IMG/VR virus record: IMGVR_UViG_3300044522_000130
Location: 1-23,101 of that record
Strand: one strand, 5' to 3'
Length of the DNA stretch: 23,101 nt
From: a virus
Shown: piece after piece, positions 3,010 through 20,011 of the stretch
Layout: each line of letters begins with the position of its first letter
How positions within the stretch are numbered: the stretch's first letter is position 1
Program-made: the position numbers and the translations under genes
Notes under the pieces: generated by a model
Told to the model about the DNA's origin: nothing
The model's input: the letters and a program-made list of their open reading frames with translations, nothing else
Databases searched by the model: none

Positions 3010-3017
3010 TATATTTG
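3010..3017 (+). promoter_or_regulatory. Candidate Bacteroidota promoter -7 box
   Basis: TATATTTG again matches TAnnTTTG, 23 bases before the ATG at 3040. The flanking sequence resembles that at 2790 (GTA, then TAATAT, then AAAC). A near-match TATATTTA lies just upstream at 2990-2997. No clear -33 TTG is visible. Transcription from here would cover the next mini-gene and the structured RNA region. Confidence 0.5.
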
Positions 3018-3039: not shown

Positions 3040-3201
3040 ATGAAACAATACGAAGTTAAAGGTTGGTACAGATATGCCGACAACGAGAAAGATTATGAGT
3101 ATGCTAAAATAATAGCAGAAAACGAACAAATGGTTATCACATTATTCAGAGATATGTTTAAACAAAACTTCTTTGCAATAGATATAAAAGAAATTAGTTA
3201 A
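3040..3201 (+). CDS. Mini-gene, 53-residue hypothetical protein
   Basis: This short frame encodes a mixed alpha-beta small protein: an initial beta strand with aromatics (Y4, W9, Y10, Y12), a charged helix (residues about 16-38), then an aromatic-rich end with FRDMF and a final strand. The pattern of strand, helix and strand resembles small single-domain phage proteins, but I recognise no family. It sits 23 bases after a promoter-like box and immediately upstream of the structured RNA and terminator, so it may share a transcript with them. Confidence 0.5.
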   Translation: MKQYEVKGWYRYADNEKDYEYAKIIAENEQMVITLFRDMFKQNFFAIDIKEIS

Positions 3202-3215
3202 GCTGTGTAAAGCGT

Positions 3216-3314
3216 TGGAACTTATAATCCATTAGAAACTAAATGTAATTCAAAACCCTGATAAATAAAAAATCCCGCCGTCAATTACAGGGAGCAAGGC
3301 GGATTGGAATTACA
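3216..3314 (+). ncRNA. Candidate structured RNA with enclosed pseudoknot
   Basis: Two small hairpins (TGGA/TCCA at 3216-3231 and TTAG/CTAA at 3232-3242) lead into an 8-bp outer helix, 3244-3251 with 3307-3314. Inside it, CCCTG (3256-3260) pairs with CAGGG (3288-3292), and CCGCC (3275-3279) pairs with GGCGG (3298-3302). The order 1-2-1'-2' makes an H-type pseudoknot with an A-rich first loop. The second helix can extend by AAT/ATT around a bulged C. The stems are GC-rich in an otherwise AT-rich genome and lie directly before an intrinsic terminator. The 7-base AATTACA occurs twice (3283-3289 and 3308-3314), so the outer helix has two possible partners, as in a switch. I do not recognise a known RNA family. 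Pairings were found by eye, not by folding software. Confidence 0.5.
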
Positions 3315-3318
3315 AATT

Positions 3319-3348
3319 AAGACTTACAGAAATGTAGGTCTTTTTTTT
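3319..3348 (+). terminator. Intrinsic terminator between terminase and tail modules
   Basis: A 10-bp stem (3319-3328 with 3333-3342, one G-U pair) closes a GAAA tetraloop and is followed by a run of eight T (3341-3348). This is a strong rho-independent terminator. It separates the terminase and mini-gene segment from the tail genes starting at 3397 and lies five bases after the candidate pseudoknotted RNA. Confidence 0.85.
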
Positions 3349-3374
3349 GTTTAATACAATTTATACTTTATTTT

Positions 3375-3391
3375 ATTATTATAAAAAAATA
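3375..3391 (+). repeat. 17-base A/T leader shared with 16522-16538
   Basis: The same 17-base A/T-rich string, with seven consecutive A, occurs just upstream of the ATG at 3397 and again at 16522-16538 upstream of the ATG at 16541. It may be a translation-enhancing leader of the kind Bacteroidota use instead of Shine-Dalgarno sequences, or part of a phage promoter. Chance is not excluded in DNA this AT-rich. Confidence 0.4.
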
Positions 3392-3396
3392 AACAA

Positions 3397-4077
3397 ATGA
3401 AGTTAGAAATAACAATACCAACAAAATTAAGTGAAATAAAACTTTCACAATATCAGGCTTTTTTAAAGATAGCTAAAGACAATGAAGATTCAGAATTTCT
3501 ACATCAAAAGATGGTACAGATATTTTGTGGAATAGATTTAAAAGAGGTTGCACAGATTAAATATAAAGATGTAAATGATATAACTACATCTATTGGAAAT
3601 ATGTTTAACCAGAATCATTCTTTTATACCTACGTTTAAAATGGGAGGAACTGAATTCGGTTTCATTCCTAATTTAGATGATATGACATTTGGGGAATATA
3701 CTGATTTAGATACTTATATTACTGATTGGGATGAGATACATAAAGCAATGGCAGTATTGTATAGACCAATTAAAAAGAAAGGCTTAAATGGCACGTATGA
3801 GATTGAAGATTACAATGGAAGTATAACTTACGCAGAGGTTATGAAGTTTGCTCCATTAGATGTTTGTTTAGGTGCTACTGTTTTTTTTTATCGTTTAGGC
3901 AACGAATTATTGAAAGCTACGATAGCTTATTTGGAGAAGGACAAGGAGGTACAGAATATTCTGCAACGGCATTATTCAACTCAAGATATGGATGGTACAG
4001 TAGCTTATATGCTCTCAGTCAAGGAGATGTTACAAGATTTGATTCCATCACAAGATTACCAATTAATCAATGTTTAA
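3397..4077 (+). CDS. Tail assembly chaperone (G-type), start of a frameshift pair
   Basis: 226 residues. It occupies the place of the short tail assembly chaperone: first gene of the tail module, upstream of the tape measure and overlapped by a second frame that appears to be reached by -1 slippage. The protein is a mostly helical, acidic fold with a conserved-looking segment FFYRLGNELLKATIAYLE near residues 163-180, and similar phrases occur in chaperone-like proteins of Bacteroidota phages as far as I recall. No catalytic motif is present. Both the zero-frame tail and the -1 extension look like real protein over 3888-4077. The family-level call is inferred from context rather than from a strong motif. 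Confidence 0.6.
   Translation: MKLEITIPTKLSEIKLSQYQAFLKIAKDNEDSEFLHQKMVQIFCGIDLKEVAQIKYKDVNDITTSIGNMFNQNHSFIPTFKMGGTEFGFIPNLDDMTFGEYTDLDTYITDWDEIHKAMAVLYRPIKKKGLNGTYEIEDYNGSITYAEVMKFAPLDVCLGATVFFYRLGNELLKATIAYLEKDKEVQNILQRHYSTQDMDGTVAYMLSVKEMLQDLIPSQDYQLINV
3882..3888 (+). promoter_or_regulatory. Slippery heptamer for -1 frameshift
   Basis: Nine T run from 3881 to 3889. In the zero frame the codons are GTT TTT TTT TAT, so T TTT TTT at 3882-3888 is an ideal X XXY YYZ heptamer. Two hairpins follow: CGTT/AACG (3892-3904), three bases downstream, and AAGCTA/TAGCTT with a three-base loop (3914-3928). A run this long could also support transcriptional slippage. Confidence 0.6.
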
Positions 4078-5255: not shown

Positions 5256-6361
5256 AAGTAGTAAAAGTAAGAAGTCCGTTTATAATTGAAGTAGGAGGTT
5301 ATGGGTCAACACATATTGGAAGCAAAATAATATTATCTATTTGGAATAAAGGAACAGCAGAGCCTACTTCTGGAAATGGGTATTATGAATTATCAAAATC
5401 AAATCCAAGTGCAACACAAAAAGAAACATATTACAACGTTTCTAATTATGTGAGAGAATTTATAGAAAATATAAAGCCTACTAAAATAGTAAGTTCACCA
5501 TCTTACGAAGATAATAATGAATGGGTAAATTTTAGAGTACGTAAATCTTGGGATAATGGAACAACTTATACAGAAATTTCTAATGTAGTATATGTAGGTG
5601 TTAATGGATTTACAACTTATACTCAAGGAGTTAATTCTATTATCGATAGTACAACTACTGGATTTTTATCTAATGATTTAATTTCAAAAAATATATTAAA
5701 GTCAAGTTCATCTTTAAAAAATTATGGTAATTGGATGGGTGAATTTACAGGTAGTAATTCGGTAAATATTGTTTACACTAATTTATCGAATACTTATACC
5801 ATAACTCAAACAGTAAGCGGATTGAGTGGGATATATAATTTAAAAATACCATTAACATTGCATCCAACAAATACTAATTTTCAAGACGGATGTAAATTAA
5901 CAGTTAATTATTTTAATGGTGGTACATTATTAAATTCAGATGTAGTTTTTGTCAATTCAATTGAAGAATGTAAATATACACCAGTTGAATGTACGTTTAT
6001 AAATAGATATGGAGGTTGGGAATTCCTAACATTTTTCAAAGCACAAAGTAACACAGTTACATCAAAAGGAGCAGATTACAAATTAACTCAAGCTAATATA
6101 AATTATAATCATTCAATAGGTCAATTCAAAACATTTAATCTAAATGGTAAACAAACTATAAAATTAAATACAGGTTTTGTAGATGATAATTATTCAGAAT
6201 TGATAACTGATTTATTATTATCAGAAACTGTTTTGTTAGATGGTAAACCTGTAACAGTAAAAACACAAGGAAGCGAATTAAAGACAAGTTTAAAAGATAA
6301 ACTAATAAACTACGAAATGGAATTTGAATACGCTTATAACCTTATAAATGATGTTGTATAA
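5252..6361 (+). CDS. Tail protein, probable distal-tail or minor tail component
   Basis: 369 residues, rich in beta-type alternation, Ser, Thr, Asn and aromatic residues, as in tail and baseplate structural proteins. No catalytic motif. The N-terminus MKVVKVRSPFIIEVGG is a beta strand pair; the middle holds repeated short strands with Gly-Asn turns; the end (about 290-365) has strand-rich sequence with LNGKQTIKLNTGFVDD and a closing helix. Its stop overlaps the ATG of the large tail protein (TAATG), so the two are coupled and likely act together. I recall similar proteins only as unnamed structural genes in Bacteroidota phages; the distal-tail role is inferred. Confidence 0.55.
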   Translation: MKVVKVRSPFIIEVGGYGSTHIGSKIILSIWNKGTAEPTSGNGYYELSKSNPSATQKETYYNVSNYVREFIENIKPTKIVSSPSYEDNNEWVNFRVRKSWDNGTTYTEISNVVYVGVNGFTTYTQGVNSIIDSTTTGFLSNDLISKNILKSSSSLKNYGNWMGEFTGSNSVNIVYTNLSNTYTITQTVSGLSGIYNLKIPLTLHPTNTNFQDGCKLTVNYFNGGTLLNSDVVFVNSIEECKYTPVECTFINRYGGWEFLTFFKAQSNTVTSKGADYKLTQANINYNHSIGQFKTFNLNGKQTIKLNTGFVDDNYSELITDLLLSETVLLDGKPVTVKTQGSELKTSLKDKLINYEMEFEYAYNLINDVV

Positions 6362-9300
6362 TGAAAGTAGTAGGTATATATATCCAAGATTCAGAAACTT
6401 TAGAATACAATAGAGTTGATTTATTTGATGATGAGAAAATAAGTGTTACAAGTTCTATACAAAATATAAATGATATTGCTAAAACTTATACAGACTTTAG
6501 TCAAACATTTACAGTACCAGCGACAAAACAAAACAATAAGATATTTAAACATTGGTACGATAACTCAAATGATTTTCCATTTAGTACATTAGTTAAATCT
6601 AATGCTTATATTGAAATAGATACTATACCATTTAGAAAAGGTAAGATTCAACTTGAAAGTGCAAATGTAATTGATGGTCAAGCACAAGATTATTCAATTA
6701 CTTTTATTGGAATATTGGGTAACTTAAAAGATACGTTTGCGGGTAAGTATTTAAAAGATTTAACGAGTACTGCTTACGATTTTGAGTATACTGCTGATAA
6801 TGTAGCACACGATATTTTTGGTGCTGCAGTAAGTACTGATGTAATGTTCCCATTAATAACATCAGGTAGAAGATGGAATTACGGATTAGGTAATGTTGAT
6901 GATATAAGTTTAGATACAAGTCCAATAAGATACAATGAATTATTTCCAGCTATAAGATTGAGAGCAGTTTTAAATATGATTGAAACTCAATTTGGAATTA
7001 ACTTTGATGGAACAACAGAAGAACCAAGTACTTTTTTAAGTGATGCAAGATTTACAAATGCTTATTTATATTTAAATAATGCTGAAGAATTTAAAACAGA
7101 CTTATTTCAACAAATTGATTTTACAACAAAAGGAAATTTAGAAGATTTACCGGGAGTAACTGTAAATTTAGACGAAAATTATTTTATAAGAGCAAATGGT
7201 GGAAATACAATAATTACAATTACACCTCAAACTGGATTTACAACTGTTCCTTATACTGTTAAAAGATATTTAGACGGAGAAGTTTGGACTACATACACAG
7301 ATAGCGATGGAGGTACAAGCACATTCTTTGTCAGAACTGATGCAGATAATAAAAAACATTCATTTTATATTGAAACAACTCAAAGTTTTGAATTTGAATT
7401 TCAAATACAGATGGCTCAATATGGACAAGTTAGTTACACAAAATCTGCTACTATGTCACCTCCTCAAATACTTTCATCAAATTTATCAATTATTACACAT
7501 TTCCCCGAAATAAAAATAGAAGATTTCTTTTCTGGATTATTAAAAATGTTCAATCTAACTTGTTATTCAAGTGATGGAATAAACTATACAGTAGAGCAAT
7601 TAGAAAGCTATTACAATGCTGGTTCAGACATAGACATAACAAAGTACGTATTACAAGATAAGAAGGCTTTAAATCGAGTTAAAACATATAAGAGAATAAA
7701 CTTTGAATATGAGAAGTCAGAATCATTTATAAATGTAGATTTTAATTCAAGAACTGGTATTGAATACGGTTCACTTTATTATCAAAATAATCCAATAACA
7801 GAAGGTGAAGAATATTCTGTTAAGTTACCTTTTGAAAATTTAAACTTTAGTAAATTAAGTGGATTTTTACAAGTAGGATATTGTTTAAAAACAGATTTAC
7901 AAAAGTATATTCCTAAGCCAGTAATTTTATATGATTATTCTCGTGATGGATTAACAAATTGCCCAACCGTTTATTTTTCAAATGCATTAATTGGAAATGG
8001 AAGTGGTTACAATCAATATAAAGCATTTGGTCAAGAAACTTTGGCTTATAATACAACTTACGGATTAAACTTCCCACCACAACAAAGCACACTAACATTA
8101 GAAATTATAGAAAATGGATTATACCAACAATACTATCAACAATACTTTGCTAATATATACAACTATAAAGCACGATTAATTAAATTAAGTGCTATACTAC
8201 CAACAAGTGTATTAACTACGCTTAAATTGAACGATAGTATCATTATACGTGATTCTAAATATTTAATCAATACTTATACAACAGACTTAACAACAGGATT
8301 AGTTCAATTTGAATTGTTAACAGATGAAAGAGTAAGGATAGATTTACAAGAAGTAAATACTTTTATAGGAGGTGTATCATCAACTATTTCTACAGATTCA
8401 CTTCTTGCTACAAAACTTGGCATATCAGTATCAGCAATTTCTAAATTTTCAATAGATGGTAGTAATATAAGTTGTAGAATTGAAGGAAATTATAATATAC
8501 CAGCATCAGCTTTTGCTAACAATACTAATATAACTTATTTTGATGATTCAGATGGATTAGTTAATATTATAAATAATACTGCTTTTTTTGGATGTACAGC
8601 ACTATCTTATATTGAATTTCCAAATGTTACCAATATTATATCAAGTTCAGCAGGTGGAACAGCAGGAACATTTCAAAACTGTACATCTTTAATTTCTTTT
8701 TCAACTCCTAAATTAGTTACATTAAGCGGTACTGGGTCTGCTTTTTTCGGATGTACATCATTAATATCTTTATCATTTCCTTTATCAAATACAAGTATTC
8801 CAACAACTACTTTTTATAATTGTTCATCATTAACTTTGGTAGATATTAATATTAATGGAAATGTTGGTGTCCTTGCTTTTGCAGGTACAAAAATAACAAG
8901 TATTAACTTATCGAATGCTACAAGTATAGGGAATGATTGTTTTAATAGTGTGACTACTTTAGTTGGTGCAATAAATGCTAATTTATGTACAAATTTAGGT
9001 AGCAATTCTTTTAAAAACACAAGAATTACAAGTATATCGTTAAACTTATTAACTCATATAAACGTTAGAGCTTTTTACGACTGTATATCACTAACTTCTA
9101 TTTCTATTCCAGAAGTATTGACAATAGATAGCTCGAATGCAGGTGGAACAGCAGGAACATTTCAAAACTGTACATCTTTGACATCTTTTATAGCTCCTAA
9201 ATTGACTACAATACAAAATAATGGATATTTTTTATTGGCAAGTTGTTCAAGTATAAACACTATATCAATGCCTGCACTTACAACATTAGGTGGAACAGTT

Positions 9301-9444
9301 GGTGATAATTATATTTTTTATCTTATAAAAACAGGATGTACAATAACAGTCCCTATCGCTTTTCAAACTAATAATAGTGGTAGTCCTGATGGAGATTTAC
9401 AATATGCAATAACAACAAGAGGAGCTACAGTAACATATATATAA
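6361..9444 (+). CDS. Large tail protein with C-terminal BspA-type leucine-rich repeats
   Basis: 1027 residues. Residues 1-690 form a beta-rich structural region with no catalytic motif, consistent with a tail tip or baseplate hub component. From about residue 693 to 1000 there are repeated units with the pattern F-x2-C-T-S-L followed by x4-P and a strand ending near I or L, the BspA/LRR_5 type of leucine-rich repeat known from surface proteins of Bacteroidota and others. The C-terminus (GDLQYAITTRGATVTYI) looks like a short capping strand. Two repeats share a 41-base exact copy. By inference the repeat region projects from the tail and binds a host surface molecule. The gene lies upstream of the tape measure, unlike the usual siphovirus order in which tail-tip genes follow it. 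Confidence 0.75.
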   Translation: MKVVGIYIQDSETLEYNRVDLFDDEKISVTSSIQNINDIAKTYTDFSQTFTVPATKQNNKIFKHWYDNSNDFPFSTLVKSNAYIEIDTIPFRKGKIQLESANVIDGQAQDYSITFIGILGNLKDTFAGKYLKDLTSTAYDFEYTADNVAHDIFGAAVSTDVMFPLITSGRRWNYGLGNVDDISLDTSPIRYNELFPAIRLRAVLNMIETQFGINFDGTTEEPSTFLSDARFTNAYLYLNNAEEFKTDLFQQIDFTTKGNLEDLPGVTVNLDENYFIRANGGNTIITITPQTGFTTVPYTVKRYLDGEVWTTYTDSDGGTSTFFVRTDADNKKHSFYIETTQSFEFEFQIQMAQYGQVSYTKSATMSPPQILSSNLSIITHFPEIKIEDFFSGLLKMFNLTCYSSDGINYTVEQLESYYNAGSDIDITKYVLQDKKALNRVKTYKRINFEYEKSESFINVDFNSRTGIEYGSLYYQNNPITEGEEYSVKLPFENLNFSKLSGFLQVGYCLKTDLQKYIPKPVILYDYSRDGLTNCPTVYFSNALIGNGSGYNQYKAFGQETLAYNTTYGLNFPPQQSTLTLEIIENGLYQQYYQQYFANIYNYKARLIKLSAILPTSVLTTLKLNDSIIIRDSKYLINTYTTDLTTGLVQFELLTDERVRIDLQEVNTFIGGVSSTISTDSLLATKLGISVSAISKFSIDGSNISCRIEGNYNIPASAFANNTNITYFDDSDGLVNIINNTAFFGCTALSYIEFPNVTNIISSSAGGTAGTFQNCTSLISFSTPKLVTLSGTGSAFFGCTSLISLSFPLSNTSIPTTTFYNCSSLTLVDININGNVGVLAFAGTKITSINLSNATSIGNDCFNSVTTLVGAINANLCTNLGSNSFKNTRITSISLNLLTHINVRAFYDCISLTSISIPEVLTIDSSNAGGTAGTFQNCTSLTSFIAPKLTTIQNNGYFLLASCSSINTISMPALTTLGGTVGDNYIFYLIKTGCTITVPIAFQTNNSGSPDGDLQYAITTRGATVTYI
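8650..8690 (+). repeat. 41-base direct repeat, copy 1, in leucine-rich repeat region
   Basis: This 41-base segment recurs exactly at 9139-9179. Both copies encode the AGGTAGTFQNCTSL repeat core in the same frame. Neighbouring repeats have diverged, so exact identity points to recent duplication or gene conversion. Confidence 0.85.
9139..9179 (+). repeat. 41-base direct repeat, copy 2, in leucine-rich repeat region
   Basis: Exact copy of 8650-8690, 489 bases downstream and in frame (489 is divisible by three), so recombination between the copies would remove or add 163 residues without breaking the gene. Confidence 0.85.
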
Positions 9445-14739: not shown

Positions 14740-14770
14740 AAGGGGTGGTAAAATGCCATCCCTTTTTTTT
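14740..14770 (+). terminator. Intrinsic terminator after major capsid gene
   Basis: A 9-bp stem (14740-14748 with 14756-14764, one G-U pair) with a seven-base loop and eight T (14763-14770). It lies 21 bases after the capsid stop and 20 bases before the next start. It probably sets the capsid transcript apart, with partial read-through to the tail tube gene since no promoter is seen between them. Confidence 0.85.
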
Positions 14771-15355: not shown

Positions 15356-15390
15356 AAAGGGGTTTATGGTAAAAGTAAATCCCTTTTTTT
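15356..15390 (+). terminator. Intrinsic terminator after tail tube gene
   Basis: An 11-bp stem (15356-15366 with 15376-15386, one G-U pair) around a nine-base loop, then seven T (15384-15390). The stem design (AAGGGG in the left arm, TCCCTT in the right) is nearly the same as in the terminator after the capsid gene, suggesting duplication or a shared phage terminator type. Confidence 0.85.
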
Positions 15391-15755: not shown

Positions 15756-15782
15756 AAAGCACCTTAATTGGTGCTTTTTTTT
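15756..15782 (+). terminator. Intrinsic terminator between convergent transcripts
   Basis: An 8-bp stem, AAAGCACC (15756-15763) with GGTGCTTT (15770-15777), loop TTAATT, then eight T on the plus strand (15775-15782). On the minus strand the same hairpin is followed by an A/T-rich stretch with four T, so it may act weakly in both directions between the plus-strand head genes and the minus-strand block. Confidence 0.8.
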
Positions 15783-16475: not shown

Positions 16476-16506
16476 CAAATATATAAAACTTTATAATACA
16501 AAACAA
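16476..16506 (-). promoter_or_regulatory. Bacteroidota-type promoter for the minus-strand operon
   Basis: On the minus strand, TTG (16504-16506), a 20-base spacer, and TATATTTG (16476-16483) match the TTG and TAnnTTTG consensus at normal spacing. This is the best promoter in the window. The -7 box ends only 10 bases before the A of the ATG at 16465, so the 5' leader would be very short or absent. Confidence 0.75.
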
Positions 16507-16521
16507 TTTTATGTTTAAATT

Positions 16522-16538
16522 ATTATTATAAAAAAATA
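16522..16538 (+). repeat. 17-base A/T leader shared with 3375-3391
   Basis: Matches 3375-3391 exactly and ends two bases before the ATG at 16541. Both follow a break between transcription units (terminator or strand switch). See the entry at 3375. Confidence 0.4.
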
Positions 16539-19676: not shown

Positions 19677-20011
19677 TGGCTTTAGATTTTACACATATAA
19701 AAGGAGATACATTTGAATTGGTAAACTTTCAAATGCTTGTTAATTCAGTTGCTTTAAATTTAACAGGTTGTACATTAAGAATGCAATTAAGAAAAGAATA
19801 TGGAGGAGTAATATTTCTTTCATTAACTTCTGTTGCAAGTGCTGGAATAACTATTACAAATGCTGCCACAGGTTCATTTAGAATTAATAGACAAATAATA
19901 AATTTAGATGCTTATAACTATATTTATGACATTGAATTAATAAAAACAGATGGTACTGTTAAAACTTATATAAGTGGAAACTTTTCAATAACTAATGACG
20001 TAACACGATAA
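19676..20011 (+). CDS. BppU N-terminal-like baseplate/fibre-attachment protein
   Basis: 111 residues, all beta. It has the pattern DFTHIKGDTFELVNFQ, then LNLTGCTLRMQLRKE, a GITITNAATGSFRIN turn, and the ending YIYDIELIKTDG plus SGNFSITNDVTR. This series (I-K-G-D-T, L-T-G-x3-R-M-Q-L, Y-D-I-E-L, D-G-x-V-K-T-Y-I-x-G-x-F) is typical of the BppU N-terminal domain, which holds receptor-binding proteins onto the baseplate of lactococcal phages. It is directly followed by the tail fibre gene (TAATG-type one-base overlap), so the two probably form one appendage. Confidence 0.7.
   Translation: MALDFTHIKGDTFELVNFQMLVNSVALNLTGCTLRMQLRKEYGGVIFLSLTSVASAGITITNAATGSFRINRQIINLDAYNYIYDIELIKTDGTVKTYISGNFSITNDVTR

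Follow-up and report, generated by a model that had tools for sequence, protein, structure and literature searches.

Genomic context

The window (the whole stretch of 23,101 nucleotides analysed here, from the lake phage with IMG/VR virus record IMGVR_UViG_3300044522_000130) contains a small upstream gene, two structured modules named E1 and Pk, an intrinsic terminator and a promoter-like block in front of the next late gene (Table 1). In Nonlabens phage P12024L the homologue of this late gene (gene 3397) is contiguous with terL. Thus the small genes, the slot holding the RNA modules, the terminator and the promoter-like block form an inserted unit in this family.

Table 1. Features between the small upstream gene and the next late gene (positions in the window; all on the plus strand)
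Feature	Position	Strand	Description
Promoter-like element TATATTTG	3010-3017	+	Putative Bacteroidota-type -7 element before the small upstream gene, assigned from the consensus TAnnTTTG
Upstream ORF	3040-3201	+	53 aa; no family match; stop codon 3199-3201 at the 5' arm of E1
E1	3194-3242	+	49-nt module; outer stem 3194-3199/3237-3242, hairpin 3216-3219/3228-3231, conserved loop ACTKATAA; match to model R2, covariation
Pk	3244-3314	+	71-nt pseudoknotted RNA module
Pk outer helix, 5' arm	3244-3251	+	Partner 3307-3314; TGTAATTC/GAATTACA; three compensatory pairs, one wobble
Pk helix B, 5' arm	3256-3260	+	Partner 3288-3292; CCCTG/CAGGG; one compensatory pair (L195)
Pk helix C, 5' arm	3275-3279	+	Partner 3298-3302; CCGCC/GGCGG; invariant in nine sequences
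Intrinsic terminator	3319-3346	+	10-bp stem, GAAA loop, T-run; stems of relatives differ in sequence and are equally paired
GTTTAATACAAT ... TTATTATTATAAAAAAATA block	3349-3391	+	Probable late promoter and leader of gene 3397; conserved in relatives
Next late gene	3397-4077	+	226 aa; phrog_32199 match, function not known

The -7 promoter consensus of Bacteroidota is TAnnTTTG. No -33 TTTG was found at the right distance from the element at 3010. The terminator has the sequence AAGACTTACA-GAAA-TGTAGGTCTT followed by the T-run. An earlier, sequence-only reading of the window had placed it five bases after the outer helix of Pk; the hairpin is present, but the spacer is four bases long. The two terminators which that reading had noted within the late genes were found, one at 14740 and the other as a hairpin with a T-run at approximately 15356-15390, and one further terminator lies at 15756. 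Its description of the downstream genes as a tail module is only loosely right: most of them are unassigned, and the assignable ones encode a BspA-type leucine-rich repeat protein, a product with an endolysin/tape-measure match and a head protease. The repeat protein (6361-9444, 1027 aa; PF13306, E 6e-38) is encoded among the late genes, and the numerous 17-mers that recur in the window resemble repeat DNA from this gene or from others. A 182-aa protein at 3-551 matches the DnaA C-terminal helix-turn-helix domain just below the Pfam cut-off.

The interval between the terminator and gene 3397 contains GTTTAATACAAT followed by about 30 nt with TTATTATTA(T)AAAAA, and this arrangement is conserved whatever lies upstream. 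A second copy of the block was found at 16492-16538, where TATAATACAA... is followed by the identical 19-mer TTATTATTATAAAAAAATA. It is situated between divergent genes, so that a plus-strand unit begins opposite a minus-strand gene. Conservation and the second copy make this block the best candidate for the late promoter, and the earlier statement that there is no promoter from 3350 to 3397 is doubtful. A sigma-70 scan was uninformative, as it gave fewer matches than in shuffled sequences. Near terL, P12024L encodes a protein annotated with sigma-70 region 2 (L294:1665-2144; NC_018272.1 gp35). One possibility is that gp35 reads a phage-specific late promoter; no counterpart of it was identified in the window.

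The pseudoknotted module Pk

The sequence-only reading had proposed an 8-bp helix around two crossing GC-rich 5-bp helices, and all three were found, with the arms of the inner helices in the order B-C-B'-C'. None of 300 dinucleotide shuffles of 3202-3350 produced such an arrangement. Across both strands, 46 kb in total, one other site shows the same crossing topology (19741-19781 of the reverse complement), and thus the topology alone is weak proof. Free folding of the Pk region leads to a nested competitor structure. In a comparison with 200 shuffles, the segment 3236-3350 folds better than 199 of them (z -2.9), to which the terminator contributes in part.

Degenerate patterns placed on different parts of the element each returned the same 12 IMG/VR contigs, and in all 12 Pk occupies the same slot as in the window. 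Shorter patterns also gave chance matches in coding sequence. The alignment comprises nine distinct sequences from close relatives (mean column identity 93%), in which the pseudoknot as drawn keeps 99.4% of the pair cells. Compensatory changes are observed at four pairs, three in the outer helix and one in helix B. The outer helix TGTAATTC/GAATTACA of the window corresponds to ATTAATTC/GAATTAAT in a homologue and to TGTAATTG/CAATTACA in L195, where helix B reads CCTTG/CAAGG. The covariation score was reached by none of 500 shuffles, and slid versions of the structure scored near zero. Since homologues show compensatory changes, Pk is more than a chance arrangement: the pseudoknotted RNA in front of a terminator is genuine, and the covariation that the sequence-only reading proposed to look for is seen in the outer helix and helix B, both of which are supported by this comparison. 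Helix C does not vary in the nine Pk sequences and hence gains no covariation support; it is plausible.

The 5' arm of the outer helix had also been credited with two possible partners, since AATTACA is present twice, at 3282-3288 and 3308-3314. The repeat exists, but the inner copy is not conserved as a partner: the corresponding site is GACATACA in L097 and ATATTACA in L101, the latter against the 5' arm ATTAATTC. Two-partner switching of this arm was therefore dropped. A longer helix C, with AAT/ATT pairing across a bulge, was also rejected, as the pairing is broken in L125. A weak match in L243 (21.7 bits) was not accepted as a homologue. Pk was never found in a tRNA array, and whole records of large phages gave one chance-level match only.

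The outer helix also marks the boundaries of Pk. It lies downstream of at least four different, unrelated genes, and the terminators that follow it differ in sequence. The 14-nt first loop (ATWAATAAAAAATC) and AGCAA are nearly invariant, whereas the outer helix and the loop between C and B' vary. Such a pattern could be expected of a riboswitch-like RNA sensing a ligand or protein, with the conserved loops as the binding site. However, no expression platform is conserved alongside Pk, no riboswitch family of Rfam matches even at E 5, and Pk is at the 3' end of its own unit; we consider this the least probable of the readings discussed here.

A second structured RNA, E1, and the long RNA of large lake phages

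On its 5' side Pk adjoins E1, which is absent from the sequence-only reading. The stretch 3191-3244 exactly matches a Flavobacterium phage (elemoA), and the match stops where the tRNA-Ala gene of that phage begins. E1 was found in dozens of IMG/VR contigs, and 8 of its 10 pairs show compensatory changes (16 distinct sequences). On contigs of larger phages, as long as 132 kb, it is located 0-2 nt 5' of tRNA-Ala and other tRNA genes; it also precedes tRNA genes read as tRNA-Leu by eye, and elsewhere it is found about 35 nt before tmRNA. Whole records of large phages contain one copy of E1, or two in one record. The usual single copy per genome led us to drop the idea that E1 is the leader of every phage tRNA. 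A 10-bp pairing of the E1 loop with the start codon of the upstream gene at 2823, seen in the window, is not conserved in E1-bearing relatives. E1 as a hammerhead, a theta/HDV-like ribozyme or an integron attC site was rejected, as the core motifs or topology do not fit, judged by eye. Weak matches to the E1 model (18-19 bits) occur inside tmRNA genes (L134:1398-1438, L145:2451-2491, L137:1477-1517), around a CUAAGC-UGUA segment near the tRNA-like end.

In the tRNA arrays of large phages E1 also forms the 5' domain of an unclassified RNA-like sequence of 260-460 nt. This long sequence is conserved in L143:1342-1713 (minus strand), L134:1764-2134 (minus strand), L142:462-813 (plus strand), L138, L164, L129, L153 and others, within or close to the tRNA/tmRNA arrays that large lake phages carry. 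Its elements follow in the order E1, AGGUUAAACAUUGA..CCU, UUUGUAA/UUUACAUAAAG, UGUGUUGU/ACAACACA, AAUGAGUUCUCAGC, UGACCC..GGGUGCUA. In the helix UGUGUUGU/ACAACACA, compensatory changes are seen at six pairs. The E1 loop GAACUUAU is complementary to the conserved AUGAGUUC (alignment A3, columns 24-31 against 369-376; L143, L134 and others). This pairing is invariant, or G-G in two sequences, and has no covariation support. The long RNA is a candidate for a new class of ornate phage RNAs.

No Rfam 15 family matched Pk, E1 or the long RNA, either in the window or at permissive thresholds on the region and on the E1-bearing regions of large phages; the only relevant matches in the latter were known tRNA and tmRNA genes. 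The window contains no tRNA or tmRNA according to ARAGORN and Rfam. The patterns of Pk and E1 gave no matches in 84,980 GTDB host species genomes.

The slot in related phages

We define the slot as the interval from the upstream stop codon to the terminator. Relatives were identified either through the similarity of their terminases or through the downstream block, and a census covered 130 distinct slots sampled without regard to the element. No recognised element is present in 110 of them, although the terminator is kept. Nine slots have a long element that is closed by AATTACTAA/TTAGTAATT and contains an E1-like hairpin. E1 occurs in four (one with Pk) and Pk in two (one with E1). An RNA of the L039 type and a lone GGTGTCC hairpin are each seen in two slots, and a tRNA and a domain of the L057 type in one each. 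ARAGORN identified tRNAs in the slots of L021 and L024. Thus the slot may hold nothing, a tRNA, E1, Pk, both, or other closed RNA domains. E1 and Pk are found apart as well as together, having been gained and lost independently. A near relative of the window, L050, has an identical terminator and flanks that are 92-93% identical, and contains neither module.

The long slot element (about 150 nt, E1-like hairpin AUCGGAACUGAUAAUCCGA) was observed in L025, L048, L052, L056, L170, L182, L186, L212 and L236; in the L056 version the loop is replaced. Another structured-looking element (GUUGCUUGAUUCAGGUAGUACAGCAAC...) occurs behind two different genes in L039:5178-5330 and in L214. In the small phage L057 the slot (3760-3840) carries only the UGUGUUGU..ACAACACAAAUGAGUUCU domain of the long RNA.

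Modular exchange at one site with sharp edges, and the sharing of E1 and another domain with much larger phages, would also be produced by mobile or recombinogenic DNA hairpins, passengers spread by phage recombination and having no function as RNA. On the other hand, both modules combine compensatory changes with long conserved unpaired loops, which points to selection on the folded RNA, and the fixed position of E1 5' of tRNAs and tmRNA is not what passengers would show. This makes a purely passenger role rather improbable.

Regulation of the neighbouring genes

The sequence-only reading took Pk for a cis-acting antiterminator or attenuator that governs readthrough into the late genes, which would then depend on it for expression. 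Indeed, 4 nt separate the end of Pk from the terminator, which itself precedes late genes. However, the 110 slots without any module, and L050, keep the terminator and the gene but not the helices, an observation which that reading had itself named as contrary. Another such observation, a strong promoter between 3350 and 3397, is nearly at hand in the conserved GTTTAATACAAT block. Apart from G-U pairs with the U tract, no pairing of Pk with the terminator arms recurs; there is no conserved alternative helix, and Pk:terminator switching was dropped for lack of conservation, as was the second AATTACA partner. The antitermination model thus loses its premises, and a slot that accepts tRNAs and unrelated folded RNAs also counts against it. 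We regard such control as very unlikely.

The main rival to the interpretation given below is a structured 3' untranslated region. E1 and Pk would then shield the upstream mRNA from 3'-5' exonucleases or regulate it, with no separate role as RNAs; in phage lambda, sib retroregulates int. Both modules occupy the interval from stop codon to terminator, and the upstream stop codon itself is overlapped by E1 and, in L101, L103, L106 and L108, by Pk. However, the upstream gene differs between carriers, most relatives that share this gene and terminator carry no module, and neither the tRNA in the slot nor E1 before tRNA genes is explained. A protective or regulatory role towards the upstream mRNA is possible, at perhaps one chance in a few.

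Comparison with known systems

The put RNA of phage HK022 consists of two adjacent stem-loops near a promoter and acts on downstream terminators. Like put, Pk is a cis-encoded structured phage RNA close to a terminator; unlike put, it is an enclosed covarying pseudoknot that abuts the terminator, is absent from most relatives and is followed by a promoter-like block. Attenuators and riboswitches with terminators rely on a conserved, mutually exclusive pairing with the terminator, which was not found here. Type III toxin-antitoxin RNAs (ToxI-like) are tandem pseudoknot repeats before a terminator and a toxin gene. Pk is a single copy with variable upstream partners, and gene 3397 matches only phrog_32199. 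Morons are cargo genes that lie in the late operons of phages and are transcribed independently. The insertion between genes that are contiguous in P12024L, the promoter-like element and the terminator are all reminiscent of morons, with the reservation that the upstream element at 3010 has no clear -33 partner. The difference is that the cargo here includes exchangeable structured RNAs and not proteins alone. To our knowledge, an exchangeable RNA slot has not been described.

GOLLD and ROOL are structured phage RNAs near tRNA islands whose function is not known (PMC12286853). E1 resembles them in its location, since in such arrays it makes up the 5' domain of the long unclassified RNA, but neither E1, Pk nor the long RNA matches Rfam, and Pk is only 71 nt long and was not found in tRNA arrays. 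Theta ribozymes are HDV-like, adjoin phage tRNAs mainly in Bacteroidota phages, and have been proposed to process tRNA 3' trailers (PMC10879173). E1 is likewise a small motif abutting phage tRNAs, but it lies on their 5' side and is a simple stem with a hairpin. Structured RNA domains in 3' untranslated regions have been called "highly unusual" in bacteria in work on the L17 downstream element, a structured domain in a potential 3' untranslated region (PMC2864571); this element is similar in that respect, but it is unrelated, and the content of the slot described here is exchangeable.

Interpretation

Taken together, we give about even odds (roughly 0.5) to an interpretation, derived from sequence comparison, in which 3194-3346 is an exchangeable noncoding-RNA cassette at the end of a short accessory transcription unit, itself situated between terL and the late gene that follows. 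The cassette would consist of two self-closed RNA domains, E1 and then Pk, followed by the terminator that sets the 3' end of the unit. RNA polymerase would start upstream of the 53-aa gene, read through E1 and Pk and stop at about 3346, leaving a compact and probably stable 3' RNA of about 150 nt, whole or processed. This RNA with E1 and Pk would act in trans as an RNA product, and transcription of the late genes would begin anew at the conserved block (3349-3391).

Several observations argue for such a cassette: covariation in both modules, the occurrence of Pk in one slot behind varied genes and in front of varied terminators, the tRNAs accepted by the same slot, and the proximity of E1 to tRNA and tmRNA genes in larger phages. 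It is probable that Pk functions within a small stable RNA. As it was never seen in a tRNA array, its status as an RNA gene is suggested by the company it keeps and not directly. Since both modules also occur separately, E1 and Pk need not form one RNA.

A broader and distinctly tentative possibility, which we rate as unlikely, is that this is a site of RNA-cassette exchange at which Bacteroidota lake phages trade self-closed RNA domains: tRNAs, the pseudoknot Pk and, from the new long RNA class, single domains such as E1 and the UGUGUUGU domain. The host would then be the target of these small RNAs in trans, and they might serve as decoys or adaptors against its defence or translation. If the cassette interpretation is right, phages of this group would have a dedicated site for swappable structured RNAs, comparable to that for cargo protein genes elsewhere, and single domains of a larger RNA would be used as independent parts. 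It would also provide two new compact, testable RNA motifs, together with natural pairs of phages with and without them in which the function of phage noncoding RNA may be studied.
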